Source: Glandiceps talaboti
Lineage: Eukaryota > Hemichordata > Enteropneusta > Spengelidae
Assembly (NCBI RefSeq): GCF_964340395.1
Contig: NC_135568.1
Span: 1,717,501-1,781,500, forward strand
DNA: 64,000 bases
Direction: 5' to 3'
The position numbers were made by a program, and so were the translations under genes. Below the pieces are notes generated by a model. That model was given only the letters and a program-made list of their open reading frames with translations, ran no database searches and was not told the DNA's origin. The number at the start of each line of letters is the position of its first letter. Position 1 is the first letter of the stretch. This document shows positions 561 through 6,500 of this stretch, piece by piece.

Positions 561-3500
561 CTGCAAAAGAATGATACGAAATGTAAACCATTGTTTTCTC
601 ATTTACCTATGAGTGGTCTGGCCTGCAGAAAGCAGAGTAATAGTGAAGTGAAATGTCATTGATATTTAAATCGGAGTTCATCTGTGTCGATTAAATGTTG
701 TTTAAGTTTGTGGGCCAAGTTATTAGAGAAAGTTTTTCGACTGAACACTCGAAGTATTCAGTCAAGATATCAGATATTATTCATTTTCTTACTGTGTAAG
801 GAACAAAGGCCTATCTCTCTGTAAATTACACATTTCTGTTATTATTCTAATCGTGTTTGATTTGGGATACTTTACTTGCACTTGCTTGCAAACACGACAG
901 TTGGTTGATACCATGATTGTTGTTTCGATTATATATCTCTCAACTTTCGGCAGTTACACTTGCAGTATGATCAGATGACCAATGTCAATGCATAATACGT
1001 ACCGACATGGTAAATGTCAATCCCAAAATAAAGCAAAGTGGATAATTTCTTTTTAGATTTCCTAAATTCTAATCAGATAACATAAATATGCACCTTGTTC
1101 TTTAGTAATTACATCACGCTTGTTCGATAAATATTCATCTCTAGCCTCACCCGTTCTCCCTTCCTAGGAAGAACGTAATGGAACGGACAAAAAAGAAAGA
1201 AAAGAATAAAAAGGAAGGATTATTCCTGATTTCAGACAATTTTCGTCTTTTCCCTATTTATGATAGTTTGCAGTGTTTTCATTACTCCCGTGATGTCGAA
1301 TTTTCAAGCATATCTTCAATCGCATGGTAGTACTTACTTGATACAAACCCTTATGAGTGTCCAGCGTCTGTTAACGTTCTTTGTTTGTTGGATGCTCTCT
1401 CTCTCTCTCTCTCTCTCTCTCTCTCTCTCTCTCTCTCTCTCTCTCTCTCTCTCTCTCTCTCTCTCTCTCTCTCTCTCTCTCTCTCTCTCTCTCTCTCTCT
1501 CTCTCTCTCTCTCTCTCTCTCTCTCTCTCTCTCTCTCTCTCTCTCTCTCTCTCTTGTTTGTTTTGTTTGTTTTAGTGCCTAATGTCCTGAATGTTGATAA
1601 TTTTCTTAATATCACTTACATATTGTAGTCTTCCCTGTAACTTGATAATGTGAGGTACACCATTGCACTGTCTGGTAACTTTCCTAGTAGCAAACGGAAA
1701 ATCCCTCTCATGACTGGCAAGTTCTAGAATGTGCAACATTCTTTCGTTTTCACATCCTTCGTGAGGTGACGGAAATGGACATAGTATCCCACACTTGTAC
1801 ACTAAATTCGGAAACTCTCTATTTGCCATGGCATTCACAAAGTTGTATAGTCTGCGCAGTAATGAAAAAGGGTTTGATCCAATCGTTGACGCAATTGTAA
1901 TCTTGATCAAATGTTGCTCAGGAAGGTTTTCTACGAGTTCCATTCTGAATGAATATTCTCCATCGATGGTAAATCTACCGACATTACGGTACACTAAGGA
2001 AGTCTGGGATATTCCGATGCCCTTGGCCAACAAACGACTAAGGATTGAGTCTGGTTTAAAGTATCCAAAGTCAAAGTAGAACACTTTATCGGGTGTGATT
2101 GGACCAAGAGTTGCCGGGTCATCAGTGTATACTGGTCTCATTGATGGAATGACGTATTCTTCAGCAAAACCTGAAACGCCATGAGTCGACTTGCTAATCT
2201 TTCCTAATGGATAGATCAGGTCATATGCTTGCAGAAGCGTGACCATCACCTTCGCATCGGGGGCGAACGGTTTAAGAAGCCTTTTCAGCAGTATGTGATG
2301 AAGTATCCCACGCATTTCTAGCTGATTCCAATATACTGACATTTCCTTTCTCTTTCTCTCGTCCGGTATGTTGACGATAGTTTTCATTACATCAACAAGT
2401 AGTTGTGGGTCTAAGATGACAAACTGTCGCAGGACTGGGTCATTGTCAAGGTAAATAACCTCTCCAGCCTGATGGAAGAATCTCAGCATTCTTGTGAGTT
2501 CGTCTCTATCTTCTATTCCGACAAGGTCCTTGGCTATCTCTGCAGCGTACTCAAAAGTGGTGACACGTTTCTTTTTGTCTTTCTTTTTGTCTTTTCTCTC
2601 CTTGCCATATTCTTGAATGTTTATGTTAAGGAAGGGAAGAAACCTAGCCCATCGAATCGGATACGTGTCTTTGTCGTAGTTTTCCCGCAAAGAGGATAAT
2701 ACTCTTTGTCGCAAAATCTCCGTTCCATTCTCATTCGTTATAGAGTTTTCAATCGAAAACAATGGTGTGTTGTCGGTATTCAGTATCAAGCTATTGCAAT
2801 ACATAGCATTAGTATCAAATAGCTTTTCTTTAAGATAACTAGCTATCTCTTCTCTTACATCAGGTGAAACACTGTCCCTGTGTGTCCCTACCAAAATTAT
2901 CGAAGGGTAGGAACACATTGCATGAGTGCACACAGAATGCAGCCAAAACAAAAGCCGTTTTAGTTGTTCGTCTCTGTTGTTACACAGTTTGAAATTAGGT
3001 AGCTTGAAAACTATCAGATAGATAGCCCGTGAAGCAATGAATACATGGTGAGTGTTATAGTAAAACTGTTGCCCTGCAAAGTCCCAAAGACTGAGAGTTA
3101 CTGGTAGTGGCCTTTTTTCTGATTTAAGAAGTCTAACAAGAAGATGATGGTATACTTTGGCTGTTAAATTGACTCTCTTTAGGAGATATACGACTTCGAC
3201 TCCTTTCTGTATTAGATGGAAAACGAGGTTACCAAAGAACCTTATGATTAAGTGCATTCTTTTGCTGGGGAAAAATGCAAAGAAAAGAAATTCGAGATTT
3301 GGTAAGAAAACTAAAAACAGAAACCTCTTCCGTGGTGTTGTGGATCCAAATATGTTTATATATTCCCGACCGAATTTAAATCCAATAATGAGGAATAGCA
3401 CTGCGATTGTCAAAGTAAGGGCATAGAATGAAACATAATGACTTTCTGGAAGAAGTGTGTACACGTATGGAATACAAATAATAAACATAAATGACATTTG

Positions 3501-6500
3501 GATATTTGTATTCAGCATATTTGGATTCCAATATTTATAAATAATTGCACTTACTAACATACACACAAATGGATAGACACCCATTATTCTGTAAACGTGG
3601 TGTATTCTCTTATGAAGTACATCAATATTGTATGTTGTGTAAAAACAGAACAAGGTGGACATCGTTGTAAACAATAAGTACTTATAACCTAATCCAAAAG
3701 ACATGCCGATCAAAAAGCCGATGACCTCAAAAGAGGTCAGCGTGAGACGATAATCTTCGCCTACACATATGCAATATGTGATATTACATATTGTAACGAT
3801 GAAAGTGAAAAAAGCGACAAGATCAAAATCATATTTCCTCCATAAAAAATAACTTAATGTGCTTGTTAAGCAAAAGATAATGCTAAGAATGACCGTTATC
3901 AATGCACTTGTTGTGAGATCATTCGTCAGGATAAAGCAAAATGATATCAGAAATACATTGAAAAGATTTGAGCGCCAATGATCCCAGGTTATCGTGTGTG
4001 TAAATCGGCCAATGTTCTCTGCTATATACCATGATATGTTTTCCTCAAACTCATTTCGTCGATTATGAATGCGGAGCCAAGATTCGTTTACGCTATGGTA
4101 CTCGCACGTAGTGGTCTCAATACCGGTAGTACTTCCTTCCCGAGGATCGAACTCGTCTCCCATTAGAGCTTTCCTTAAACTTGTTTTACCGACAGAACTA
4201 TCACCAAGAATTTGAACTTTGAATTTATTCATTGGAAGATGACCGGATTTTTCCCCCTCTTCGTATAAGGTGTGAACAGGTTTTATTAGACCGATTTGTG
4301 ATGTTTGTCTCATCGTTGAAGACCAAAGCATCGATTGCGGTACAACGGCTTCATTTGACACATGGCATGTTAAAAGTTCGACTTCTGTTCCGTCTTCTCC
4401 ACTGTAAAAATAAACCGAGAGCTAGGATAGATCACCTTTAATACACCCTGTGATATTAAATTTCAACCATAGGGAATCACAATATCAATATATATAATCC
4501 ATAATAGTAACTGTATCATAATCAACATTTTGATGTTGACTTCTGATAACCAAATTTAAGATTCTTAATATTTCAAATGGTTGAAGTGGCAATTAAAACA
4601 TTATTATCGCAACTTACTGCTGATTAGAGGTTTGATGGGTTCATGGAAAAAACGAGACGGGGGGGGGGGGTTAAAGTTTTATACCTTCCCTAAGGGAAGG
4701 TTATGTGCTGTGCTGTGCTGTATGATTGTCTGGGTCACCGTTTCCTAAAAAAACTGATGGCTCGATTGAAATGAAATATGGTACACATTTTTGAGTTTAG
4801 TCAATTGCATGTGATAGTTAATATACTTCAGCAAGTAGAATGCTACGAGTGACTTTTAAATAAGCAGTATAAATCTCGCCCAAAAAACCATACCTATAAA
4901 CCCAGCTTGTGCCCCCTAAAATTCAGTTCTGAACTCTAACTCAAATAAGACACAGTTCAACTGAAATATGATATGAGTATATTGAACTAGTTTAGGGAAA
5001 TGATATGAAAAGTTCGAAATCGGCAACGGTTCTCATATTATAATCAAATAAATTAAAGTTACTTGGTATACCTTTTCTGTTCATTTTGTGGCAGGCTTGA
5101 GGTTCCTATGTTACCACTACACTTAGTCTTACCACGCTCTGTTTGATTCCTCGGTATATCAGTATCGTTCGAACATGTCCTATCTTCCGGCGTCTCTTCC
5201 TCGACTCTCCTCGCGTTTACTGCCTGCAAAAATATTTGATAACGATATTTCGGATCATTTCTCTTTACTTCAATAGTCTGTCACTGTGAGGAAAATTAAA
5301 TTGTCTGTACCACTGATAATTCTCCCATTCAAATTACTAGAAACTTCTAGAAATCGATTTTTCCCCAATCCATTAATTTGTGGATTCTCAATTTTCTATT
5401 GAGGAGACCTCAAATTGTCAAAATCGGCAATAACGTGTCGTCGTCAATTGTCCTTAATACAGGTGCACCACAAGGATGCATTCTGTCCCCCACTTCTATA
5501 TTCATTGTACACATATGATTGTATTTTCAGCCAATCAAGTACACCAATTAAGTTAGTCCGAGGCTAGCTGCTAGAACTTAGGATACTCTTCTTATATGAT
5601 ATGACAAGCGACCGAAGGTCGGTTCATCGAGGGTGGGTGTTCCGCCCTCATTCGGTCGCTTATCGTATCGGAAGAAATCCTAAAGGTCAGCAGCTTGACT
5701 ATGATTTGAGTTCCCAGATGATACTACCTTGGAAGATCTTATAGAGACGAAAGTGCGTATCGTAATGAAATTAATAACCTCGTTAGCTGATGCTCAGAAC
5801 ATAGCCTTGATCTCCATGTTTCAAAAACAAAAGAAATGATCATAGACTTTCGGAAAAATAAATTCCAGCTAGAACCACTTGCAATCAATGGCAACCCCAT
5901 AGAAATTGTGAACAGCTTCAAGTTCCTAGGATCTATCATTTATTTCGGACGATTTAAAGTGGGATAAGAATACTGATAACATCCTGAAAAGGGCACAGCA
6001 ACGTCTTTACTTTCTGAGGCGGCTAAACAAGTTCGAATTAACAAGTCTTAGAGTACAATGGTTCAATTCTACAGAACATTCTTTTGAAAGTTTACCAACT
6101 TTTTCGATAACAGTTTGGTTTAGAGCCTCATCCGAAAGTGTTAAACTGAGGCTGGACAATATCATTTGACACGCATCTCTCTTATTTGTACGCTTGGGTC
6201 TTCTTCATTGTATTAATTCCGAGAAAAGCAACATTTCTTTACATTTCAAGCATAGCAGTTACATTTGAATAATATGTACAAAAAGTACGATTAAGATTAA
6301 GAATAAAAAAGAAAGTTGCAAATGCTGTATAAAAAAAACTAAATGAAACATGTGCTTTGAATAAAACACTTTTCAGCATCAAGTAATCACAAACTTGGGT
6401 AGTCAGTCTGTATAGAGAGTTTTAACATGTAGATTTCTTTTGTTATACCTATTCACAGGAATCAATATCTTTGGTGAAGTGATAACAGGTGCAAATATTT

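Follow-up and report, generated by a model that had tools for sequence, protein, structure and literature searches.

The LOC144450470 locus

The DNA considered here is a stretch of 64,000 nucleotides (hereafter the window) from the spengelid acorn worm Glandiceps talaboti, an enteropneust hemichordate. Near one end of the window, on the reverse strand, lies the gene LOC144450470, which encodes a protein with a Roc GTPase domain followed by a COR region. Over the main exon, the protein encoded in the window is identical to isoform X2 of this gene (1029 residues; P0002). By eye, the N-terminus of P0002 can be fitted to a first coding exon at 6831–6893, encoding 21 residues (letters not shown), and to a second at 5072–5223, whose product begins with ten residues that are likewise not shown and ends in NEQK; both exons are on the reverse strand, as are all features of the gene given below.

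The main exon (1620–4401) is a single open frame, with a donor at 1619 and an acceptor, placed by eye, before 4401. It carries a first Roc half, a membrane block, a second Roc half and the COR region, in this order. The first Roc half (4089–4235; beta1, P-loop, switch I and beta2) was delimited by the Pfam Roc and Ras profiles and by alignment with solved structures; its P-loop reads GDSSVGKTS (4179–4205) and its switch I STTGIE. The second half (2775–3110; beta3, DFAGQ and THRD) was placed from the Pfam Roc match at residues 432–516 of P0001 and from LRRK2 Roc, with DFAGQ, in the context WDFAGQ, at 3069–3083. Between the halves lies an insert of about 326 residues including linkers (3111–4088), within which the membrane block occupies 3225–3992. 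Both features that were tested as marks of a Roco protein are present in the window protein, namely a Roc domain in which the motifs follow one another in the usual order and a COR directly behind it (1620–2774; COR-A by Pfam, PF16095, 2.5e-11). A first-pass annotation, made from the letters alone, had placed the Roc P-loop, switch I, hydrophobic helices, DFAGQ, THRD and COR in one exon, and all of them were found in this open frame; the hydrophobic block that it marked at 3270–3968 falls inside the block, and the larger insert, as now placed.

The insert is coding and probably retained. Its frame has no stops in 326 codons, and the other frames across it have 24 and 17 stops (forward) and 19, 14 and 26 (reverse). 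Across the insert, GC content differs little between codon positions (0.353, 0.313, 0.362), and the coding case therefore rests on the open frame and on the relatives, since the same layout recurs at the same site in other genomes. Between residues 55 and 140, no donor of the forms GTAAG or GTGAG, the two forms checked, was found; no strong donor by which the block might be spliced out is thus seen, splicing-out being a refuting condition named in the first-pass annotation.

A Roc domain interrupted at the interswitch hairpin

The two pieces of the main exon appear to form one Roc. On the window protein, the Pfam Roc profile matches two separate stretches (2e-19, 70.4 bits); once the insert is removed, it is covered from position 1 to 119 of 119 in a single stretch, at 80.4 bits. 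LRRK2 Roc, which provides the best solved-structure matches of the window Roc, is likewise matched in a single stretch at 7.1e-15 without the insert, versus 2.4e-11 for the split protein. The earlier claim that a polytopic membrane block splits this Roc is supported, the helices being predicted ones.

In the alignment with LRRK2, query residue 101 pairs with chain residue 57 and query residue 435 with chain residue 68, so that 333 residues (102–434) replace 10. In Ras-fold terms, we take this insertion point to be the beta2–beta3 turn, i.e. the interswitch. The first-pass annotation had set the insert at the switch region; its site is the interswitch hairpin and not switch I. From P-loop to DxxG the distance is 373 residues in the window copy; in 16 insert-free Roc relatives among the matches, two of them labelled bacterial (Chloroflexi and Photobacterium), it is 43–65 residues, with no hydropathy peak between the motifs.

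Distribution of the family

Two protein searches returned 66 and 62 proteins, partly overlapping. Each search scored only about 8000 candidates, those with most words in common with the query, which covers prokaryotes as well through these searches alone and does not imply absence elsewhere. Among P0003–P0043, both P-loop and DxxG are present in 37 of 41 proteins, the remaining four being without the P-loop end, and all 37 have between three and eight hydropathy peaks between the motifs, which lie 384–426 residues apart. Eleven members were added from the second search (P0069–72, P0074–79 and P0089), giving a total of 49 with the window copy; in 48 other proteins, therefore, both Roc motifs are present and the same site is occupied by a hydrophobic insert. 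The named sources are Ptychodera flava, Glandiceps, the lancelet Branchiostoma lanceolatum, the crinoids Anneissia and Antedon, the ophiuroid Amphiura and the limpet Patella. Relatives that keep the membrane insert, whose existence the first-pass annotation had proposed to check, thus span four phyla, in which the order of Roc motifs followed by COR, broken at the beta2–beta3 hairpin by predicted transmembrane helices, is established at the level of sequence.

In Ptychodera, 14 membrane members are listed, some of them isoforms, and ten seemingly come from one contig, which suggests local duplication and expansion. A second Glandiceps copy (P0006, LOC144438639) seemingly lies on another contig; its gene model starts inside the membrane block, and its tail is TIR-like, with no Pfam TIR match at 0.05. 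Searches of an open-access library found no description of a Roc split by membrane helices, in line with the initial impression that no family of this layout had been described.

Topology of the membrane block

Topology was predicted with a home-made hidden Markov model, with approximate parameters, for the 49 members (the window copy and 48 others, some of which are isoforms or partial models). The window copy has seven hydropathy peaks, or eight helices by the model, and the mean hydropathy across the 49 aligned members has about ten peaks. Ten helices with the N-terminus inside are the commonest prediction (17/49), followed by nine (13/49) and eight (5/49), with fewer in 14/49. By prediction, the helix number of the family is probably about ten; the eight or nine helices counted at first come close to this copy but fall short of the family. 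Both ends of the block are called inside in 27/49 members (one of these helix-free) and both outside in 1/49. Predicted helices outside the insert occur in none of the 49, and among 50 relatives without the membrane insert 47 have no helix, two have two and one has three. Both the predictor and hydropathy thus point to membrane helices, for which a dedicated prediction had been proposed.

In 12 of the 17 ten-helix members, lysine and arginine together make up 0.120 per residue in loops called inside and 0.051 in loops called outside, a test that is partly circular because the predictor itself uses charge; in the same 12 members the TM4–TM5 loop, called inside, breaks the trend at 0.024. The loops called outside are short, with means of 8–22 residues in the 12 members. 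Among the positions conserved in at least 60% of members, D/Y/R/G follow helix 2, GxxxGxGxR closes helix 4, and GxxxGR and a Glu come behind helices 8 and 10, respectively (helix numbers follow P0010).

Kinship and origin of the membrane block

No convincing relative of the block was found in PDB, in Pfam or as a free-standing protein. A profile of 13 blocks had no match in PDB at E 10, and each weak Pfam match of the 13 inserts came from a single insert (best 0.042). In NCBIfam, nqrD is weakly matched by the window copy (0.0013; 18.6 bits, the cut-off being 244.85) and by none of the four other members scanned. A search at similar protein length returned two proteins of about 290 residues. 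Both resemble P0029, extend past helix 10 as it does, and are read as fragments, not as free-standing relatives. An internal 5+5 duplication of the block was considered and rejected, as half-versus-half and motif-window comparisons gave probabilities of only 0.2–6.4.

Within the family, profile comparison of 66 pairs (reversed controls, 0–12) indicates homology between the blocks of several branches. In Ptychodera, the TIR blocks and the Death blocks are linked in the probability range 91–99, and both match those of Branchiostoma, crinoids and the ENA groups P0017 and P0071 in the same range; P0017 and P0071 match each other at 90. Other direct pairs are weaker (Branchiostoma–crinoid 64, crinoid–P0071 39, Branchiostoma–P0017 1). 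The group that contains Amphiura reaches 73 (with P0017), and Patella and P0029 reach 75 and 25, respectively (with Ptychodera Death), while P0074 and the P0039 group have no link to other blocks in these pairs.

The kinship of the window's own block rests on the Roc-COR trees, the common insertion point and two ordered motifs. The trees set the window copy beside the Ptychodera TIR branch (Shimodaira–Hasegawa-like approximate likelihood ratio test, SH-aLRT, 97; second tree 92/95). The first motif, 13 letters long (not shown), precedes GFKFGR; it is present in 11 of the 48 other members and arose in 0 of 20,000 shuffles, its pattern having been derived from alignments that include the window copy.

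Identity was compared between block and COR in 18 pairs. The block is less conserved than COR in five pairs of intermediate distance (26–41% versus 43–66%) and in three close crinoid pairs (54–74% versus 68–86%), and about equal to it in the four closest Ptychodera pairs (80–85% and 78–88%). The idea that the block is hypervariable as the signature of an arms race was set aside on the strength of these four closest pairs. Between the window copy and the Ptychodera TIR relatives, identity in one and the same alignment is 15–17% in the block and 49–66% in the Roc halves.

The Roc-COR trees require two changes for the membrane insert, and a single clade is not rejected (approximately unbiased test, p 0.288; 37/79 rows), so that a single origin of the insert is neither proved nor rejected by them. 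Corals, bivalves, one Ptychodera protein and further records have soluble interswitch inserts, of 126–256 residues (448 in P0100), and several of these proteins share with the membrane family a Trp shortly past beta2, which suggests that a soluble insert was already in place when the membrane block was acquired within it. As to a phage source, the window protein has no match in phage records. A distant branch of ENA proteins (P0039, P0076, P0078, P0079 and P0089) has LDFAGD or LDFSGD motifs; its hydrophobic insert does not align with those of other members (the profile comparison lacked P0076) and is possibly an independent gain.

Output domains, splicing and neighbouring genes

COR-A is matched in 40 of 42 members, and what follows it varies. 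The Ptychodera proteins P0003–P0005 carry an in-frame TIR (Pfam TIR_2 0.006–0.028, below cut-off), and a profile of five tails matches the structures of TLR6 (2.4e-4, the best), TLR10 (8.6e-4), TLR2 and TLR1. A Death domain ends P0010 of Ptychodera, P0016 of Branchiostoma and P0077 (three of seven scanned) and is matched in 11/42 members. In the window gene, the TIR exon (127–606) gives a TIR_2 match of 0.0049, again below cut-off. Isoform X2 uses the acceptor before 560, which throws TIR out of frame; the frame would be kept by an acceptor before 606 or before 597, and could also be restored by any of 49 candidate small exons. The output domain of the window gene is probably TIR, as in the Ptychodera relatives. 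The C-terminal TIR of the first-pass annotation therefore stands for three relatives, in frame, but not for isoform X2, and other relatives end in Death instead. An acceptor 46 bases upstream of that of X2 would keep TIR, and splicing might in this way toggle the output domain.

The intron that separates the Roc-COR exon from the TIR exon contains a long CT microsatellite at about 1395–1554. Elsewhere in the window, two near-identical adjacent genes or gene parts on the reverse strand (24538–25990 and 26337–27434), with Lys/Glu-rich and helical segments, represent a recent tandem duplication, the first copy (24538–25990) having no Pfam match above cut-off. An open reading frame on the forward strand (30594–31034) carries a DOMON domain (2.2e-15).

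A proposed mechanism and its alternatives

We favour, at a probability of roughly 55%, the reading that these proteins are an undescribed family of integral-membrane Roco proteins in which a helix bundle and the nucleotide state are coupled, with TIR or Death as output. The architecture is well supported by the sequences themselves, whereas the mechanism is one that we infer. The Roc halves would come together in a single cytosolic GTPase, since the chain is predicted to re-enter the cytosol after an even number of helices, probably ten. The bundle would hang from the hairpin that links switch I to switch II; the interswitch would shift in response to a signal in or at the membrane (ligand, lipid, potential or tension), thereby setting nucleotide exchange or the dimer state of Roc-COR. 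Conversely, GTP loading would move the bundle. Such two-way coupling is proposed because the bundle would be continuous with the hairpin. The output would be the clustering, through Roc-COR dimers, of C-terminal TIR (in the Ptychodera relatives and probably the window gene) or Death domains (in other relatives), in the manner of innate immunity or cell-death pathways. The coupling would be akin to the Arf interswitch toggle, and the layout to that of KAP NTPases.

A more ambitious version, which we offer tentatively and hold to be less probable, is that these proteins are membrane receptors of a new class. The interswitch hairpin of a Ras-superfamily GTPase would itself be the ten-helix sensor (or pore) and would convert a membrane event into a nucleotide state with neither a G protein-coupled receptor nor a separate exchange factor; TIR or Death would be the output, and the genes would have multiplied into an immune repertoire in invertebrate deuterostomes. 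A novel membrane fold would have been placed in a pre-existing soluble interswitch insert.

Several observations weigh against the favoured reading. The G4 pattern is found in only 33 of the 49 members, the 16 unmatched ones being mostly crinoid; G1 and G3 are present in all 49, which is partly a selection criterion. An odd helix number, predicted in 21/49, would leave the two Roc halves separated by the membrane, and P0078 is predicted helix-free. When each insert was shuffled once, 7/49 still reached at least eight helices, compared with 35/49 real inserts, so composition accounts for part of the helix signal. The first Roc half alone matches LRRK2 weakly (5.4 bits). The window's own block has no recognisable kinship with the others by profile (probability 0–4), and isoform X2, which joins the donor at 1619 to the acceptor before 560, lacks an in-frame TIR and terminates early.

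The alternative that survives best, although we consider it unlikely, is that the helices merely hold a conventional Roco switch at the membrane, uncoupled from the nucleotide, with sensing left to COR, the N-terminus or partners. The block is indeed the least conserved part at intermediate distance (26–41%, with COR at 43–66%, in the five pairs), and the shortness of the outside-called loops implies that there is no ectodomain. However, one or two terminal helices would be enough for anchoring, the Gly, Arg and Glu positions in and beside the helices are conserved, and the interswitch location itself would make some coupling likely.

Less probable again is the effector direction, in which the Roc GTPase would gate a bundle that is a channel, scramblase or transporter, with TIR or Death merely assembling the complex. 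A conduit could be made by some ten helices in which small and charged residues are conserved, and nqrD, weakly matched by the window copy, is a membrane subunit; against this, no transporter or channel relative was found in Pfam or PDB, and the other members scanned did not repeat the nqrD match.

That the halves fail to fold together, the G domain being degenerate and the protein a membrane scaffold, is improbable: the 16 members with unmatched G4 and the 21 with odd helix counts would fit it, but the joined halves match the entire Roc profile, and between the window copy and the Ptychodera TIR relatives the Roc halves have kept 49–66% identity against 15–17% in the block. A chimeric assembly, or an intron taken for coding sequence, would account for the flat codon-position GC but hardly for an open frame without a strong donor and the recurrence of this layout, at an identical site, in other genomes, and we regard it as very improbable.

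If the halves do fold together, a Ras-like switch would have a polytopic membrane domain built between its two switches. One could then ask directly whether a GTPase can be driven mechanically by events in the membrane, and the family would offer a natural case of Roc-COR, the module of the Parkinson's kinase LRRK2, fixed to the membrane. It also adds to research on invertebrate immunity an undescribed multi-copy family with TIR or Death domains, and a membrane domain without relatives in the searches made here.

Comparison with known systems

Like the window protein, Roco GTPases (LRRK2, DAPK1 and bacterial Roco proteins) have Roc motifs followed by COR. Their Roc is uninterrupted, with 43–65 residues from P-loop to DxxG in the 16 relatives, whereas that of the window is broken by the membrane block (373). 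In FeoB, a GTPase is fused to membrane helices but not split by them. The soluble-insert Roco proteins of corals, bivalves and Ptychodera share the insertion site, several with the Trp past beta2 and some with Death; their inserts are mostly 126–256 residues long (448 in P0100) and, unlike those of the window family, have no predicted helices in the gap. Toll-like receptors have TIR in common with the window gene, though the likeness is weak (TIR_2 0.0049, below cut-off; TLR6 2.4e-4 for the five-tail profile), and they combine a leucine-rich ectodomain with a single helix, whereas the window exon has no leucine-rich repeat in the Pfam scan and several helices.

Other variants of Roco proteins have been reported. 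In Aplysia, ROC-COR is linked with TIR in ROCO-TIR proteins (PMC9334734); in the brown alga Ectocarpus, a ROCO protein has a C-terminal domain that resembles transmembrane proteins (PMC4104024), and some Roc domains contain insertions (PMC11378527). The portions of these three papers available to us make no mention of a membrane block inside Roc.

In Arf, the interswitch shifts by more than 10 angstrom with the nucleotide and controls the release of the myristate to lipid, so that the same hairpin moves with the nucleotide and governs membrane attachment (PMC12554972). The Arf hairpin is short and it is the myristoylated N-terminus that reaches the membrane, whereas in the window family the membrane domain would lie inside the hairpin, with its movement only proposed.

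The KAP NTPases, reportedly described by Aravind in 2004, are said to have transmembrane segments inside the NTPase domain. In KAP P-loop NTPases such as Kidins220/ARMS, such segments are combined with cytosolic signalling parts (PMC4632323). KAP belongs to the STAND/AAA-like side, and Kidins220 has four helices. No Pfam match to the KAP profile was found at E 10 for the window protein, among the best 25 of 49 families for 42 members, or for the 13 inserts. What the two systems share is the presence of predicted helices inside a P-loop NTPase domain, between P-loop and DxxG in the window family; what separates them is the STAND/AAA-like fold with four helices in Kidins220 as against a Ras-like GTPase with about ten. 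As a parallel, the KAP NTPases have the nearest published layout.

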